Assembly (NCBI GenBank): GCA_003242895.1
Contig: QKMY01000060.1
Location: 1-64,000, forward strand
Length of the DNA stretch: 64,000 nt
Direction of reading: 5' to 3'
Source of the DNA: Candidatus Margulisiibacteriota bacterium
GTDB taxonomy: Bacteria > Margulisbacteria > Riflemargulisbacteria > GWF2-39-127
Each line of letters starts with the position of its first letter. Position 1 is the first letter of the stretch. Below the pieces are notes generated by a model. The model was not told the origin of the DNA and made no database searches. It worked only from the letters and a program-made list of their open reading frames with translations. The translations under genes and the position numbers were made by a program. This document shows, piece after piece, positions 13,586 to 21,659 of the stretch.

Positions 13586-14353
13586 ATGGATTATTCTCTC
13601 AATGTAAGCAATGCGTTTACTCTCGATATAAGAAGAATGATGAGTAATTTGAAAAATGTTTTTGAAGAATATGGCATAGAATCAATACTGTTCTTGGATC
13701 AATCTGCGATGGAAGAACTCTACTTATTCAGTCAGATGAACGTTACTGTTTATGCTGATATTGAAAATGAAAAGCTGTCAAGGATTTTGAAAAAAGATTT
13801 AAAGCGGGTCCGCCCTGTTTCCGAACTTGATGATAAAGTCGACATGATATTTTTGCCTGCGGATAGATCGATTAATCATTATGACCTTCGTACAGAACGA
13901 AAACGATTAAGAAAAAAGGGTTTGATTGGGTACAAGACCTATAATTTCCCGAAAAAAGGCGAAGCACCTCTTTTGCTGCAGCAATATTACAACCGCTTGG
14001 GATTTATGACATTATTGTCTCCTAAAGGTAAGTTAACTAAAGTCGTAATTACGAGTCATGAGACCTGTTATTATTATCAGGATAAGGACACGCGGCTTGA
14101 ATCTAAAGAGGTTAAGTCACTTGTTAAAAGCTATGGATTTAAGAAGGAATTATATTTCGGGGAACTCTGCGAGGCTTACGACAAAGAGGTAAACCATTAT
14201 GCCTATAAGTTCTATCGAAAATCGAAAGGCGTTATGACCAAAGAGGAGATGGATGAGGAATTGATGCCTCTGATGACGTCCGGAGAGATATCTGATAGAT
14301 TTAACGATATCATGGAAAAAAATAGCTTAAAGCGTGAAGATTTTGAATTGTAA
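13586..14353 (+). CDS. Conserved-looking protein of unknown function
   Basis: I do not recognise this 255-residue protein. It is soluble, highly charged and rich in Lys/Arg and Tyr, with no signal peptide, membrane helix or clear enzymatic motif. A central basic stretch DLRTERKRLRKKGLIGYK (about 112-129) could contact nucleic acid, and residues 150-160 (GFMTLLSPKGKLTKVV) look like beta strands. A GAAGGGAG Shine-Dalgarno eight bases before ATG 13586 supports translation. It lies alone between the SpoU-family gene and the SAM riboswitch of metX, so it is probably the last gene of the upstream run. No function is proposed. Confidence 0.6.
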   Translation: MDYSLNVSNAFTLDIRRMMSNLKNVFEEYGIESILFLDQSAMEELYLFSQMNVTVYADIENEKLSRILKKDLKRVRPVSELDDKVDMIFLPADRSINHYDLRTERKRLRKKGLIGYKTYNFPKKGEAPLLLQQYYNRLGFMTLLSPKGKLTKVVITSHETCYYYQDKDTRLESKEVKSLVKSYGFKKELYFGELCEAYDKEVNHYAYKFYRKSKGVMTKEEMDEELMPLMTSGEISDRFNDIMEKNSLKREDFEL

Positions 14354-14356
14354 ATA

Positions 14357-14385
14357 TTGACAAATAATGTCATCGCAGTTAGCAT
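14357..14385 (+). promoter_or_regulatory. Promoter of the metX-metW transcript
   Basis: TTGACA (14357-14362), 17 bp spacer, then TAGCAT (14380-14385), placing the start of transcription just before the SAM riboswitch P1 stem at 14397. The -35 is perfect; the -10 matches four of six consensus bases. Confidence 0.55.
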
Positions 14386-14396
14386 TATGGTGAAGA

Positions 14397-14495
14397 TCTT
14401 ATCGAGAGTGGTGGAGGGACAGGCCCGAAGAAACCACGGCAACCTTGTTTAGTAACAGGTGCCAAATCCTGAGCAGTGTAACTGCGAAGATAAGA
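14397..14495 (+). ncRNA. SAM-I (S-box) riboswitch
   Basis: S-box aptamer upstream of metX. The P1 stem pairs TCTTATC (14397-14403) with GATAAGA (14489-14495). Inside lie the conserved blocks GAGGGAC-GGCCC, a near-canonical ACGGCAACC, and GGTGCCAAATCCTG, which form the four-way junction and SAM pocket of the class. Binding of SAM stabilises P1. The 3' strand of P1 is also complementary to TCTTATC at 14519-14525 in the downstream terminator, which is the expected switch between antiterminator and terminator. High SAM should therefore shut off metX-metW. Confidence 0.96.
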
Positions 14496-14515
14496 AGTTG
14501 AAATGTAATATTTTA

Positions 14516-14548
14516 GCCTCTTATCAATAATGGTAAGAGGCTTTTTTT
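14516..14548 (+). terminator. Intrinsic terminator of the SAM riboswitch expression platform
   Basis: Perfect 8-bp stem GCCTCTTA/TAAGAGGC (14516-14523 with 14534-14541), 10-nt loop, then seven T residues. Its 5' arm can alternatively pair with the 3' strand of the aptamer P1 stem. Confidence 0.93.
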
Positions 14549-14612: not shown

Positions 14613-15734
14613 ATGGATCAGGACTTGAATACCCAGACTGGAAAATTTACCTTTGCTGAGCCGCCAAGTACGTTTGTATTGGAGAGCGGACAGATAATCG
14701 GCCCGATTACGATTGTTTATGAAACTTATGGTCATCTTAATAAAGAGAAAAGTAATGCGGTACTGATCTGTCATGCTTTAAGCGGAGATGCTCATGCGGC
14801 AGGGAAGTATAACGAGAAAGAGAAAAAACCAGGCTGGTGGGATATTATGATAGGTCCGGGTAAGCCGTTTGATACGAATAGATATTATGTCATTTGCTCG
14901 AATGTTATCGGCGGTTGTAAGGGAAGTACCGGTCCTATTACGATTAATCCCGAAACTGGAAAACCCTACGGAATGGATTTCCCGGTAATAACAATTCAAG
15001 ATATGGTGAAAGCTCAGAAGGCGCTTATCGATTGTCTCGGTATAGAGGTCCTTTACTGTATAGCTGGCGGATCGATGGGCGGCATGCAAGTTCTTAAGTG
15101 GACACAATTATTTCCTAAACGGGTAAAGGCTGCAATGGCCATCGCTACAACGGCGCGGTTGTCTGCCCAAAGTATTGCCTTTAATGAAGTCGGAAGACAG
15201 GCGATAATCGGAGATCCTCATTGGAATAGAGGGGATTATTATCATAAAGATCATCCGCACAAGGGGTTATCAATTGCCAGGATGCTTGGACATATAACCT
15301 ATTTGTCCGATGCGTCTATGCGCGAGAAATTCGGGAGAAAATTGCGTGGCAGTGATACTTATAGCTATGAACTGTTAACAGAATTTCAGGTGGAAAGTTA
15401 TCTGCATCACCAGGGAAAGAGTTTTACTGAGAGATTTGATGCGAATTCTTATCTCTATTTAACAAAGGCCATGGATTATTTTGATTTGGCGGATGGGTAT
15501 GCTAGTCTTCAGGATGCCTTAAAAGATTATAAGAACAAATACCTGGTTTTGTCATATTCTTCTGACTGGCTTTTTCCTACCTATCAGGCGAAGGAACTGG
15601 TAAGCGCGTTACGGGGAAATAATATCGATGTGTCTTTTTGTGAAATACAATCAGCTTACGGCCACGATTCTTTTTTAATTGAAAATCCGTTGCAGGATAA
15701 GTTGATTCGGGGTTTTCTGGAAAATATTGAGTAA
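14613..15734 (+). CDS. metX: Homoserine O-acetyltransferase
   Basis: Alpha/beta-hydrolase-fold acyltransferase that activates homoserine for methionine synthesis. 373 residues, typical length. [28 protein letters not shown] and the nucleophile elbow GGSMGGM (Ser154) are conserved; Asp and His of the triad lie in the C-terminal part (SSDWLFPT and YGHDSF). Acetyl- versus succinyl-CoA preference cannot be decided safely from this reading, so acetyl is the default name. GAGGA precedes ATG 14613. The SAM-I riboswitch immediately upstream, with metW downstream, confirms the pathway. Confidence 0.95.
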
Positions 15735-15764
15735 GCTTACTTGCTAACTGAGAGGTTGGAAACT

Positions 15765-16397
15765 ATGTATCATTTTCAAGGAATATACCACGAACCGTCA
15801 CATAAGCGGCTCGATTTACAAATTATCGTTGATTTGATAGAAGAGGGCAGCAAAGTCCTTGATATCGGGTGTGGTGATGGCGATTTGCTGGCACTTTTGA
15901 AAAAAGAGAAGAAGATTACTGCATACGGGATAGAAATACTTGATGAGAAGATAGGTAATTGTGTCAGCAAAGGGCTTACCGTTTTTCAGGGGAACATTGA
16001 TGAGGGACTTTGCGATTACGGGAACGGGTGCTTTGATTACGTCATATTATCCCAAACTCTTCAGGTTGTTATGAAAACCGAATTTGTTATTAACGAAATA
16101 CTTCGTGTGGGAAAGAAAGCTATTATAAGCTTCCCAAATTTTGGCTTTTGGAAGTGCCGCTGGGACTTGTTGATTACAGGACGGTCGCCAAAAACGAAAT
16201 CATTACCATTTGAGTGGTACGATACTCCGAATACGAGAATACTGACAATAAAAGATTTTAGAGCTTTTTGTGAAGAAAAGAATATCGCTATAATCAAAGA
16301 AATCCCTTTATTAGGAACCAAAACACAGGGGAAAGTTGTGGCGATGCTTCCTAATTGGAGGGCACATTACGGCATGTTTATAATTTCGAAGGACTAG
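15765..16397 (+). CDS. metW: MetW, methionine biosynthesis methyltransferase-like protein
   Basis: Class I methyltransferase-fold protein that accompanies MetX in methionine synthesis. The SAM loop VLDIGCGDGDLLALL is followed by VILSQTLQVV and the MetW-specific FPNFGFWKCRWDLLITGRSP and PFEWYDTPNTR stretches. The frame is open from TTG 15741, but ATG 15765 with AGAGG nine bases upstream gives the family-like start MYHFQGIYHEPSHKRLD. metX-metW is a very common operon and the riboswitch upstream should control both. Its biochemical role is poorly defined in general; interaction with MetX has been reported for some homologues. Confidence 0.93.
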   Translation: MYHFQGIYHEPSHKRLDLQIIVDLIEEGSKVLDIGCGDGDLLALLKKEKKITAYGIEILDEKIGNCVSKGLTVFQGNIDEGLCDYGNGCFDYVILSQTLQVVMKTEFVINEILRVGKKAIISFPNFGFWKCRWDLLITGRSPKTKSLPFEWYDTPNTRILTIKDFRAFCEEKNIAIIKEIPLLGTKTQGKVVAMLPNWRAHYGMFIISKD

Positions 16398-16405
16398 GGA
16401 ATAGT

Positions 16406-17263
16406 ATGAATAATCTCGTTTCAGCGTGTTTTAAACCTAGAGCAAAAGATTCGTACAAGGGTGATTATGGTCGGTTAATGGTGTATGGCGGCAGTTTCGG
16501 GATGATGGGTGCTGCGTGTCTGGTTGCCAGAGGCGCGATGAGGACCGGAGCTGGTTTAGTCTATATTGCATCTCCTTTATTATTAGTAAACTTTTTTAAC
16601 CTTGCTTTTACCGAGGCAGTAATTAAGGGGTATCCTGACGAGTTAGGAACTATTTCGCATGATTCTATCGATACGTTATTAGCAGACATGGAAAAAGCGA
16701 GTGCACTCGTTATCGGACCGGGTTTGGGAGTCTCTCCCAACGCGAGAAAAATAATTTTGGATATTTTAAAAAATTTAAGAAAGCCGGTTGTTTTAGATGC
16801 TGACGGTATTAACAATATTCATCGGCATGAATTGAAACATATTAAAGCATCTGTCATCATTACTCCTCATTACGGAGAATTTTCACGGCTGATGGATTTG
16901 TCGATTGCTGATATCCAAAGCAGCGGGACTGAGTTATCCAGAAGAGCTGCCGGAGAGTTGAATATTACTATCGTTTTGAAAAGTTACAGAACGTTAATAA
17001 CAGATGGGGAACGTTCTATTGAGAACACAACAGGTAATCCGGGAATGGCGACAGCCGGATCCGGAGATGTGCTGTCCGGTGTGATTGGCGGGCTGCTGGC
17101 TATGGGTAATGGAGTTTTTGAAAGTGCTGTTGCCGGGACATATGTGCATGGGTTGGCTGGAGACATTGCGGCTGTTGATAAAGGAGAGTATGGTCTGATA
17201 GCCTCAGATATTGTAGAATGTTTACCTAGTGCAGTTTTAAAGGTGCAAAAATATAATGTTTAA
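16406..17263 (+). CDS. nnrD: ADP/ATP-dependent NAD(P)H-hydrate dehydratase
   Basis: Repairs damaged NAD(P)H hydrates by nucleotide-dependent dehydration. Ribokinase-like fold with YGGSFGMMGAACLVARGA, VIGPGLG, VLDADGINN and the anionic-hole signature GNPGMATAGSGDVLSGVIGG. I use ATG 16406, after CTAGGGA and eight bases beyond metW; a TTG at 16355 would overlap metW needlessly. The protein is 285 residues and consists only of the dehydratase half. The NnrE epimerase domain, often fused in bacteria, is missing and must be elsewhere or absent. It overlaps mlaE by eight bases. Confidence 0.93.
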   Translation: MNNLVSACFKPRAKDSYKGDYGRLMVYGGSFGMMGAACLVARGAMRTGAGLVYIASPLLLVNFFNLAFTEAVIKGYPDELGTISHDSIDTLLADMEKASALVIGPGLGVSPNARKIILDILKNLRKPVVLDADGINNIHRHELKHIKASVIITPHYGEFSRLMDLSIADIQSSGTELSRRAAGELNITIVLKSYRTLITDGERSIENTTGNPGMATAGSGDVLSGVIGGLLAMGNGVFESAVAGTYVHGLAGDIAAVDKGEYGLIASDIVECLPSAVLKVQKYNV

Positions 17264-18023
17264 GTTATTAGGTTCTTTAGTCATAAGTTTCATTGACGAG
17301 TTAGGTAATATCACTATTCTGGGCCTCAGGGCAATGCGTTCGATTGTCAAAGGAAAGGTCCAGATGCGGAATGTTATTGATCAGATGGCTTGGCTTGGCG
17401 TCAACTCACTGGCTGTTTCGGTGACTACTGCTGCTTTTGTCGGCATGGTATTTGCGACGCAGATCGTTACTAAATTTTCGAAGCTTGGTGCGATCAGTAT
17501 GGTCGGTGGAATTGTTGGGCTAGCTGTGTGGCGGGAATTAGCTCCTATCCTTACTGCTGTTGTTCTTGCCGGTAGAATAGGCGCTGCGATTGCTGCAGAG
17601 TTAGGTTCTATGAAGGTTACTGATCAGATAGATGCCATGGAATCTATGGCAGTAAGCCCGGTTGATTACCTTGTTGCTCCTAGAGTATTATCCTGCGTTT
17701 TTATGTTGCCGGTCTTGATTATTTTTGCTGACCTGATAGGTTTTCTAGGCGGATATTTCGTTTCTGTATTTATCTTTAGTGTTAATCCGGTATCCTATTT
17801 TACCTCGGCTTCAACAATGCTAACAGTTACTGATATATGGCCAGGTATTTTTATTAAAGGCCCTATTTTTGGTTTGATTATTTCTATGATCGCTACATAC
17901 AAAGGGTTAAGCGCAAAAGGTGGTGCTCGAGGTGTTGGCGAAGTAACAACAAGTGCTGTTGTTCTCGCATTAGTAAGCATATTTGTCTCCAACTATTTTT
18001 TGTCGCAAATTATTTTTAGGTGA
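17256..18023 (+). CDS. mlaE: MlaE-family ABC transporter permease (phospholipid transport)
   Basis: Inner-membrane permease of the MCE-linked phospholipid transporter. 255 residues with about five hydrophobic helices. Typical MlaE/YrbE stretches are visible: FVGMVFATQIVTKF, RELAPILTAVVLAGRIGAAIAAELGSMKVTDQIDAM and PRVLSCVFMLPVL. It starts inside the end of nnrD and is followed four bases later by mlaF and then mlaD. No mlaA, mlaB or mlaC gene is present, so this is the minimal EFD form. Confidence 0.95.
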   Translation: MFKLLGSLVISFIDELGNITILGLRAMRSIVKGKVQMRNVIDQMAWLGVNSLAVSVTTAAFVGMVFATQIVTKFSKLGAISMVGGIVGLAVWRELAPILTAVVLAGRIGAAIAAELGSMKVTDQIDAMESMAVSPVDYLVAPRVLSCVFMLPVLIIFADLIGFLGGYFVSVFIFSVNPVSYFTSASTMLTVTDIWPGIFIKGPIFGLIISMIATYKGLSAKGGARGVGEVTTSAVVLALVSIFVSNYFLSQIIFR

Positions 18024-18027
18024 TACC

Positions 18028-18777
18028 GTGATAGATTTTGAGAGAGTAACAAAAATATTCGATAGCAGGCTTATAATTGATAATGTTGACCTGACAATCA
18101 ACAAAGGAGAGAAAGTCTCTATTATCGGTCCAAGCGGGTGTGGGAAAAGCACTATGCTGCGACTCATCATCGGGCTTCAACCTGTAACTTTTGGACGAGT
18201 CATGATTGAAGGCGATGATGTTGCGAAACTTAGCTCTACGGGACTTGCAAAACTTCGCTTAAAGTTCGGGATGGTATTTCAGTCTTCAGCTCTGTTTGAT
18301 TCTTTGGATGTGGGTAAGAACGTAGGTTTTGGACTGAAACAGAATACGGATTATGATGATAATAAAATTAATAAAATTGTCGCTGAAAAATTGGAGATGG
18401 TTGGTCTTGCCGGTATAGAGAGGACAATGCCATCGGAATTGTCCGGTGGGATGCAGAAACGTGTGGCCCTTGCACGCGCGATTGCAACGAGTCCGAAAAT
18501 ACTTCTTTATGACGAGCCGACAACCGGATTAGATCCTATTACCTCAACTGTCATCGAAAACCTGATAAATAAATTGAATGCTGAGCTTGATGTTACTTCA
18601 ATAGTGGTTACTCATCAGTTGAGCACTATATATAATACTTCAGATAGAATTATCATGATGCATAGCGGGAAGCTGTTCGAAGCCGGAACTCCGGATGAAG
18701 CTAAAAGAAATCAAAATCCTATTATCAACCACTTTTTAAATGGAATAGTGACACCGAGTGAAAGGAAGGAATATTAA
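18028..18777 (+). CDS. mlaF: MlaF-family ABC transporter ATPase
   Basis: Cytoplasmic ATPase driving phospholipid movement through MlaE. Walker A GPSGCGKSTM, Q-loop VFQSSALFDSL, signature LSGGMQKR, Walker B ILLYDEPTTGLDP and the H-loop VVTHQ are all intact. A GTG at 18028 preceded by AGGTGA gives the family start MIDFERVTKIFD, so I prefer it to the TTG at 17983 that overlaps mlaE by 41 bases. 249 residues is normal. The stop shares one base with the mlaD start (TAATG). Confidence 0.94.
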   Translation: MIDFERVTKIFDSRLIIDNVDLTINKGEKVSIIGPSGCGKSTMLRLIIGLQPVTFGRVMIEGDDVAKLSSTGLAKLRLKFGMVFQSSALFDSLDVGKNVGFGLKQNTDYDDNKINKIVAEKLEMVGLAGIERTMPSELSGGMQKRVALARAIATSPKILLYDEPTTGLDPITSTVIENLINKLNAELDVTSIVVTHQLSTIYNTSDRIIMMHSGKLFEAGTPDEAKRNQNPIINHFLNGIVTPSERKEY

Positions 18778-20126
18778 TGAATTTATCGAATGCTACAAAG
18801 GTAGGTATTGTTACTTTTTTATCGGTAATTATTTTAGTTGTCGGACTTCTATGGAAAAGTGGTCTGTATATTAAAGCATACGGTTATCGAATATATGGTA
18901 ATTTTGAGACTGTAAGCGGACTTTTGCTCAGCTCACAGGTACGATATCGAGGTTACCTGGTCGGGTTCGTAGAAAAAATAGAGCCTCAAACACGCAGAAT
19001 AAGGGTTTCGCTTATTATTAAACGAGGAGTTGTACTTCCAGCAAGTTCAAGGCTCAGAGTCTCGTTTGATGGGCTGATAGGTGAAAAATATATGGATATT
19101 CTCGCTGAAGTTCCTACAGATGAAGTTTTAAAAGCAGGCACAGTATTGCCTGGCTATGCGTCTAGGGGCCTCGTGGATTTTGTCGATATCGGGACACAGA
19201 ACCTGGAAGAAACCAAGAAAATGTTGGAAACACTGCGCAATATAATTACTTCGCCAGAAGTTGAAAAATCGATTAAAGATACAATATTAAGGCTTGATAC
19301 CATCACCATAAGATTTGATGAAATACTCTCGAGTGTCAGCAAATTTACGTCATCAGAAGAAGTATCAGGATTAAAAGATAGTTTGTCTAGTATTTCTCTC
19401 TTTGTTAATGATTTGAGGAAAAAGCTTCTTAATCCGGAAGCTGTTAATGATGTTCACGCTATTTTGAAAAATACTGATAGTGCAATGAAAAATATCAAAG
19501 AAGCCTCAGATAAAATTAATAGTATTTTTGGATCTGTTGATGGAATGATGCAAGAGAAAGGAACTACTACTGATATTACCGGGCTGCTTAAAGATACAAG
19601 AGAGACAATTCAAAGTGTTAATAAATTACTTTCTGAGCCGGAGGTAAAAACAACTATCAAAAAGACGAATCTGGCACTTGATAAGACAAATAGAATTCTT
19701 AGCACCATAGAAAACACTGAATTTGTTCCTTATGCCAGTTATAATAATAGAACCAAAAACAGTAATAACTTCTATGATCTAGGGTTTGACGTGAAATATG
19801 CAGATATTTATTCAACAGGTATTGGCCTGAGCAATCGTAGTGGAAAAGATAAGCTGGATTACTTACAACAGGGTATACAGTTGAATCAGGATATTGTTGG
19901 TCGTGTAGGGATAATGAGATCATTAACCGGCTTTGGTTTGGATTACAAAAAATATGAGTCTCTCCATGTGTCAATTGATTTTCCATACGATAAAGGCCTT
20001 AATCTTGACTGTCGAGTGAAGTATAGTCCGTTTAATAAAGGCGTGTTCGAGAAACTATACTTAATGTTGGGGCAAGAGAGTGTTTTTCGCGAGAATTCTT
20101 CTTTTGTATTTGGAATAGGATTTTAG
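18777..20126 (+). CDS. mlaD: Long MCE-domain protein MlaD with a C-terminal outer-membrane-barrel-like tail
   Basis: Periplasmic lipid-channel subunit. One N-terminal membrane helix (about 8-28), one MCE domain (about 37-118; SGLLLSSQVRYRGYLVG and VSFDGLIGEKYMDIL), a long helical stretch (about 130-315) and then about 130 residues of alternating beta strands (318-449) ending in FVFGIGF. That ending, with an aromatic last residue, resembles outer-membrane barrel C-termini. In Veillonella parvula, MlaEFD with a long MlaD bearing a C-terminal barrel forms a trans-envelope bridge; this protein has the same layout and the same lack of MlaABC. AAGGAAGG precedes ATG 18777. The MCE call is firm; the barrel is an inference. 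Confidence 0.9.
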   Translation: MNLSNATKVGIVTFLSVIILVVGLLWKSGLYIKAYGYRIYGNFETVSGLLLSSQVRYRGYLVGFVEKIEPQTRRIRVSLIIKRGVVLPASSRLRVSFDGLIGEKYMDILAEVPTDEVLKAGTVLPGYASRGLVDFVDIGTQNLEETKKMLETLRNIITSPEVEKSIKDTILRLDTITIRFDEILSSVSKFTSSEEVSGLKDSLSSISLFVNDLRKKLLNPEAVNDVHAILKNTDSAMKNIKEASDKINSIFGSVDGMMQEKGTTTDITGLLKDTRETIQSVNKLLSEPEVKTTIKKTNLALDKTNRILSTIENTEFVPYASYNNRTKNSNNFYDLGFDVKYADIYSTGIGLSNRSGKDKLDYLQQGIQLNQDIVGRVGIMRSLTGFGLDYKKYESLHVSIDFPYDKGLNLDCRVKYSPFNKGVFEKLYLMLGQESVFRENSSFVFGIGF

Positions 20127-20282: not shown

Positions 20283-21659
20283 ATGTTAATAAGATTTAGT
20301 GATGATAGGTTACATGCTGATATTAGTGTAGGCAGTGATGAGATAGATGCTGCTACTGAAGATAAACTTTATCAATTTCTCAAAGCTAAAGGCATTGGGT
20401 ATGGTATATTGACGGCCAATGTTACAAGAATTATTGCAGAGAAAATATCCAATAAATATGTTCGGATAGCTGAAGGTAAACCTCCGCAAAGTGGCAAGGA
20501 TACAGAATTTATCTTGTTTTTTAAGAACGAGATTAAAGCGGAAAAACCAAGAGAACGGGAAAATGGATCGGTAGATCATAGAGATCTTGGTTATGTTATT
20601 CCAGTAAAAAAAGGCGGCAGATTAATTGAGATTATCCCACCTTCAAAAGGGGTACAGGGTATAGATGTTTTCGGCAGTATAATCCCGGTAGTTGATGGAA
20701 ATACATTCTGTATAGCGATTGGTGAAAATACGAGCCTATCAGAGGATGGCCGGTATGTTTATGCTGAAGCTGATGGTGCGGCATCTTTTTTAAATCAAGA
20801 GGCGAAAGTTACGACTACACTTCTCATTAAATCTGATATCGATTACTCGGTAGGAAATATTCGCTTTCCAGGGGATATAACAATTTGTGGTAGCGTTAAA
20901 GATGGATTTACCGTAATATCCGAAGGAAATATTTTGATCCTTAAGGATATAATTAATGCAACTGTCGAGACAAAAGGTTCAATAGTTATTAAAGGTGGAA
21001 TAAACAATAAAACCGGCGGTCATGTGAAGGCCGTTAAAGATATCGAGGTAAACTTTATTCAATTTGGCAAAGTTCATGCAGGAGAGAAGCTTATTGTTGA
21101 AAAAGAAATTATGTATAGTAACGTTGTAGCGGGTGCGCTGTTAACCAACGATGGCAAAGATAGCCGGATATTAGGCAGTAATATTAAGTGTTATGGCAAA
21201 ATAATCGCATATGATCTCGGTTCTAGAAAAGAAGCGAGTAAAATGGTGATCACCTTATCTGAAAATTTGGAATTATTGGAAGCAATTGAAAATATCGGGA
21301 TTAAAATCCAAGCAAATAAATCTGAATTAGTTGGGATAGATACGGAAGTAAAGTATATTGAACAATACCTGGCTGCTCCTAATTTAGCCTCAGATGAGTT
21401 CCATGAGTTCGAAAAAATTTATGAAGATTTTAACCAAAAGAAGTTGGAAGTTGAAAAAAATAATATGTATTTAGAAGAAGAAAAGAATAAAATACTTAAC
21501 TACATTAAAGAAAAAGGCAAACCAATGATCCATGTCAAGAATTCTATCTTTCCGGGGGTTACGTTGCAGTTTTCGACGAGGAAACTTGATATTACCTCTG
21601 AAAAAAGAAGAATTAGGATTTTCGAAGAAAATAATGTAATTAATTTTAGGCCTTTGTAA
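20283..21659 (+). CDS. FapA/DUF342 family protein
   Basis: 458 residues matching the DUF342 (flagellar assembly protein A) family: GYVIPVKKGGRLIEIIPPSKGVQGIDVFG is the family core, split here only by my reading, followed by a repetitive beta-helix-like region (NIRFPGDITICGSVKDGF, SEGNILILKDIINATVE, GSIVIKGGINNK) and a C-terminal coiled coil (about 340-410). These proteins are cytoplasmic or membrane-associated polymer-like proteins of poorly known function, found in flagellated and non-flagellated bacteria. No flagellar gene is in the window. Start ATG 20283 has no strong Shine-Dalgarno. It stands alone between mlaD and the minus-strand yfcE. Confidence 0.85.
   Translation: MLIRFSDDRLHADISVGSDEIDAATEDKLYQFLKAKGIGYGILTANVTRIIAEKISNKYVRIAEGKPPQSGKDTEFILFFKNEIKAEKPRERENGSVDHRDLGYVIPVKKGGRLIEIIPPSKGVQGIDVFGSIIPVVDGNTFCIAIGENTSLSEDGRYVYAEADGAASFLNQEAKVTTTLLIKSDIDYSVGNIRFPGDITICGSVKDGFTVISEGNILILKDIINATVETKGSIVIKGGINNKTGGHVKAVKDIEVNFIQFGKVHAGEKLIVEKEIMYSNVVAGALLTNDGKDSRILGSNIKCYGKIIAYDLGSRKEASKMVITLSENLELLEAIENIGIKIQANKSELVGIDTEVKYIEQYLAAPNLASDEFHEFEKIYEDFNQKKLEVEKNNMYLEEEKNKILNYIKEKGKPMIHVKNSIFPGVTLQFSTRKLDITSEKRRIRIFEENNVINFRPL

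Follow-up and report, generated by a model that had tools for sequence, protein, structure and literature searches.

The 64,000-nucleotide stretch of Margulisbacteria DNA analysed here (the window) very likely encodes a Veillonella-type MlaEFD system with three components, the sole lipid transporter of the Mla/MCE kind in this organism. This three-gene system probably moves lipids between the two membranes via one long protein anchored in each. The locus is an ordinary, well-preserved member of a recently described type of system and had been correctly read as such from its sequence. What is new lies mainly in the host and the gene neighbours and, in addition, in a pattern of helix lengths, a riboswitch-headed gene run and a family of relatives devoid of Mla. 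In the literature, we found neither a discussion of MlaEFD in Margulisbacteria nor experiments on Mla in this phylum.

Profile matches and coordinates confirmed that mlaE, mlaF and mlaD are adjacent and head to tail on the + strand (17256-20126), as proposed in an earlier, sequence-only reading of this DNA. The genes and the parts of MlaD are the following:

17256..18023, + strand: mlaE, inner-membrane permease, 255 aa (PF02405, E 5.9e-73; TIGR00056 above cut-off)
18028..18777, + strand: mlaF, ATPase, 249 aa from the GTG start preferred here (PF00005, E 2.8e-34)
18777..20126, + strand: mlaD, 449 aa (PF02470, E 2.6e-14; AF2 model; Foldseek matches)
18882..19103, + strand: MCE domain of MlaD, a single domain (PF02470)
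19170..19712, + strand: predicted helical tail of MlaD, residues 132-312, six amphipathic segments (AF2 model)
19716..20126, + strand: predicted C-terminal ten-stranded beta-barrel domain of MlaD, residues 314-449 (models, Foldseek)

The PDB matches of MlaE are the MlaE proteins from Pseudomonas, Acinetobacter and E. coli. Translation of mlaF more likely begins at the GTG codon at 18028 than at the TTG retained by the ORF caller, which overlaps mlaE; the GTG leaves a spacing of four bases after the end of mlaE. The motifs of the mlaF product are intact (Walker A GPSGCGKST, signature LSGGM, Walker B ILLYDEPT and switch VVTHQ); the MlaF model NF008809 is among its top NCBIfam matches, yet below cut-off. 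The start of mlaD overlaps the mlaF stop codon by one base, and within the E-F-D run there is no additional gene for MlaB. Downstream, a FapA-like protein (window 20283-21659) begins 156 bases past mlaD, and no terminator-like site was found between the two genes.

The AF2 model of full-length MlaD, a single chain built on 26 sequences, comprises a transmembrane helix (residues 5-28), an MCE fold, six helices (132-312) and ten strands (314-448). This architecture is in line with the roughly 185-residue helical stretch and the beta-rich end of 130 residues which had been noted from the letters, as is the single PF02470 match with the claim of one MCE domain. The helical region was modelled with low confidence (pLDDT 42-75), and each of its six helices is amphipathic (p 0.001-0.04). 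When the whole model was compared to the PDB with Foldseek, chains of Mycobacterium smegmatis Mce1 came out best, followed by proteobacterial MlaD.

The C-terminal 144 residues of MlaD were also modelled separately, on 42 sequences. The isolated domain was predicted with high confidence (pLDDT 94.4, pTM 0.83) and with the same ten strands as in the full-length model, that is, as a membrane-type barrel and not as a soluble domain. Its top hit in the PDB, aligned over its full length (E 3.4e-4, TM 0.61), is TMB10_163 (8uzl), a transmembrane barrel designed with ten strands. The next matches are chiefly outer-membrane barrels such as KdgM, Veillonella OmpM1, NanC and OmpA, although Foldseek scores are moderate, with E < 0.001 for one match only. 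It would be very surprising if this region were instead a soluble beta domain, with MlaD merely reaching into the periplasm. Some of the weaker matches are indeed soluble proteins (thioesterases, a lyase and designed fluorescent-binding barrels), but the best and most of the high-probability matches are membrane barrels, and hydrophobicity alternates along the strands more than in shuffled sequences (p 0.009). In addition, no Pfam family, soluble ones included, covers this domain in the 42 relatives searched, and the last strand is conserved among relatives, with an invariant glycine at position 446. This strand, SFVFGIGF, carries aromatic or aliphatic residues at positions -1, -3, -5 and -7, a known pattern of barrel proteins, and its FGIGF ending is the genuine C-terminus of MlaD. 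The further suggestion that six MlaD C-termini close into one barrel is unsupported, since each protomer is predicted with its own ten-stranded barrel and the single-chain model already gives a complete one.

The closest described system is that of Veillonella parvula, which lacks MlaA and MlaC, possesses only MlaEFD and has overlapping mlaF and mlaD codons (Grasekamp et al., 2023; PMC10665443). Its MlaD contains 419 residues, about 150 of them helical, together with a ten-stranded barrel, and has been modelled as a tunnel; genetics and the fractionation of MlaD domains to the two membranes have been published as well (PMC10665443). The layout proposed for the window agrees with this report on every feature tested: only MlaE, MlaF and MlaD, overlapping mlaF and mlaD, absence of MlaA and MlaC, one MCE domain and a predicted ten-stranded barrel. 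This comparison was made at the level of layout. The window MlaD is similar in length (449 versus 419 aa), with a longer helical part (about 180 residues versus about 150) and, unlike in Veillonella, the host belongs to Margulisbacteria and the upstream region contains methionine genes and a SAM riboswitch. A survey found elongated MlaD to be widespread in diderm Terrabacteria (PMC10665443); Margulisbacteria are absent by name from the main text of that study, and its supplement may include them.

The six-component proteobacterial Mla system (MlaFEDB, MlaC and MlaA) shares with the window homologous MlaE, MlaF and MCE domain of MlaD. It differs by MlaA and MlaC, which are missing genome-wide here, and by its short MlaD (about 180 aa), the window MlaD being more than twice as long owing to its tail and barrel. 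Against TIGR04430, the window MlaD scores 53.8, versus a cut-off of 135. With Mce1 of Mycobacterium smegmatis (8fed/8fef), which supplied the best full-length Foldseek matches, MlaD has in common the proposed succession of an MCE ring and a long tunnel of helices. However, Mce1 is built from six different subunits, each adding one strand to a shared six-stranded barrel (PMC10665443), whereas here a single mlaD gene is present and a whole barrel is predicted per chain.

The genome, estimated to be 100% complete by the tool used, contains one MCE protein and one MlaE. Profile searches detected neither MlaA nor MlaC anywhere in it; the same searches were positive in E. coli and Caulobacter, used as controls. 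Of the proposed lack of mlaA, mlaB and mlaC, the absence of A and C thus stands and extends to the whole genome, B having been looked for inside the E-F-D run. The observation that would have spoken against the bridge, mlaA or mlaC genes elsewhere together with a separate MlaD, was not made, as the genome has neither of these genes nor a second one for an MCE protein. Relatives were sampled among Marinamargulisbacteria, GWF2_35_9 and Termititenax, which belong to the same class as the window, and among WOR-1/Saganbacteria, from the same phylum; a single-sequence scan of genome contigs found none of them, and an alignment query retrieved them. Of the 38 relatives, 27 have MlaD, and these same 27, and no others, have MlaE, with one copy of each; MlaA and MlaC occur in none of the 38. 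The E-F-D order is kept in every relative locus of sufficient length. At one locus (L032, 1182-3900, the same region as G036:C11), approximately 1.2 kb is inserted between mlaE and mlaF, the sole clear interruption of the run that was seen. No match was obtained for plasmid carriage. A contig titled Actinomycetota bacterium (L071) carries mlaEFD genes 43-51% identical to those of the window and is possibly a misnamed or mixed MAG. Collectively, the phylum, a lineage close to Cyanobacteria, provides support for the three-gene MlaEFD with a barrel-tailed MlaD as the older form.

On another contig, the host carries an outer-membrane gene cluster:

G000:C24, 12000-51799 (L030, L031): genes for a 1650-aa AsmA/TamB-like protein, two Omp85, OmpH, LpxD, a small barrel, LpxC, a FabZ-LpxA fusion, LpxB and a RseP-like protease

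From its gene content, the presence of Omp85, OmpH and LpxA, LpxB, LpxC and LpxD, the host is therefore read as a diderm with lipid A genes. LptD gave no match with PF04453, a profile which also misses two LpxC-bearing control genomes, and TamB gave none with PF04357, though the 1650-aa protein occupies the TamB position beside Omp85. An SLH-domain protein with a LysM-like end is also encoded near this cluster. In one Margulisbacteria family (f4: G008, G010, G013, G015, G018, G021, G023 and G026, four of them above 90% completeness), Omp85 was found in 8/8 genomes and LpxC in 7/8, and MlaD and MlaE in 0/8. These relatives retain Omp85 and nearly always LpxC without Mla, which is therefore dispensable in them. 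With lipid A genes kept and Mla absent, this family represents a natural experiment on what Mla is needed for.

The proposal of a trans-envelope lipid bridge is supported by the predicted barrel, the lack of MlaA and MlaC and the Veillonella layout; for this organism, we infer lipid transport itself, its direction and the bridging. MlaE and MlaF would form the inner-membrane pump, powered by ATP, and MlaD is likely anchored in the same membrane by its N-terminal helix. In a putative hexamer, the MCE domains would then come together as a six-fold ring; the long amphipathic helices would build a hydrophobic tunnel through the periplasm. Each MlaD chain would end in a small ten-stranded barrel presumably seated in the outer membrane. 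The MlaC shuttle and the outer-membrane lipoprotein MlaA would be unnecessary because the MlaD barrels would themselves sit in that membrane. The likeliest cargo would be phospholipid retrieved from the outer membrane. Against this model, a monomeric barrel has been judged too narrow for a phospholipid (PMC10665443), a caution that also applies here to the passage of lipid into or out of the outer membrane.

This last difficulty raises an evenly balanced possibility, which refines the bridge model: the barrel may be a mere anchor or docking plug tying the tunnel to the outer membrane, with lipid entering sideways between barrels or via another outer-membrane protein. In addition to the narrowness of the barrel, the same study regards a ring of six barrels as unlikely (PMC10665443). 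In our models, every protomer has a complete small barrel and, within WOR-1, barrel length varies more than helix length, which also favors an anchoring role. However, no partner gene is conserved beside mlaEFD phylum-wide, except nnr on the WOR-1 side, and therefore no second outer-membrane protein is indicated. As for the direction of transport, sequence gives no reading of it, and phospholipid export towards the outer membrane could be envisaged in place of import. We consider export unlikely: Veillonella mutants accumulate PE in vesicles, a phenotype suppressed by the loss of tamB and pointing to import (PMC10665443), and the separate, very large protein in AsmA/TamB position beside Omp85 is a candidate exporter.

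The bridge model is directly testable through the helical tail, the length of which should track the width of the periplasm, as fixed lengths are seen in the phylum (92 versus 129-175 residues). The helical part measures exactly 92 residues in 22 of the 23 WOR-1/Saganbacteria MlaD proteins and 85 in the remaining one, despite a mean identity of only 59% between these parts; outside this group, it ranges from 129 to 175. In the same WOR-1/Saganbacteria proteins, the C-terminal domain varies from 146 to 159 residues. A helix length fixed by lineage is what a ruler of periplasm width would predict, and we put this forward only as a proposal because shared descent alone could fix a length. Within the window MlaD, residues 143-175 are repeated at 271-303 (offset 128; 0/300 shuffles reach the score). 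This repeat brackets the extra length of the protein, and a comparable motif pair occurs about 41 residues apart in WOR-1 MlaD proteins, suggesting that the tail lengthened by growth between two conserved units.

The placement of mlaEFD directly behind methionine and nnr genes was also borne out, with metX, metW and nnr immediately upstream. The upstream features are as follows:

14357-14385: good promoter-like site, TTGACA-17-TAGCAT
14396..14496, + strand: SAM-I riboswitch aptamer ahead of metX (Rfam RF00162, 85.7 bits versus a gathering score of 44.4)
14515..14542, + strand: intrinsic terminator hairpin and T run, between the aptamer and metX
14613..15734, + strand: metX-like homoserine acyltransferase, first gene of the run (PF00561; adjoins metW, behind the SAM riboswitch)
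15741..16397, + strand: metW (PF07021, E 1.4e-71)
16406..17263, + strand: nnr, NAD(P)H-hydrate dehydratase, from a putative internal ATG start (PF01256, E 1.8e-52)

Just 5' of the riboswitch, the window encodes a 255-aa protein (13586-14353) without Pfam or NCBIfam match.

With the starts preferred here, the six genes metX-metW-nnr-mlaE-mlaF-mlaD lie no more than 8 bases apart or overlap slightly, nnr and mlaE overlapping by 8 bases. The SAM-I riboswitch possibly controls this whole run. It is tempting, if somewhat doubtful, to propose that the sole lipid-asymmetry machine of the organism is transcribed with the methionine genes from the SAM-riboswitch promoter, so that low methionine or SAM would lead to more lipid recycling from the outer membrane. 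The arrangement of riboswitch, methionine genes and mla was seen in one genome only: no methionine genes are found near mla in the loci of other relatives, and no riboswitch was detected in the 13 relatives' mla loci searched with Rfam. In most WOR-1/Saganbacteria loci, too, mlaE is immediately preceded by nnr.
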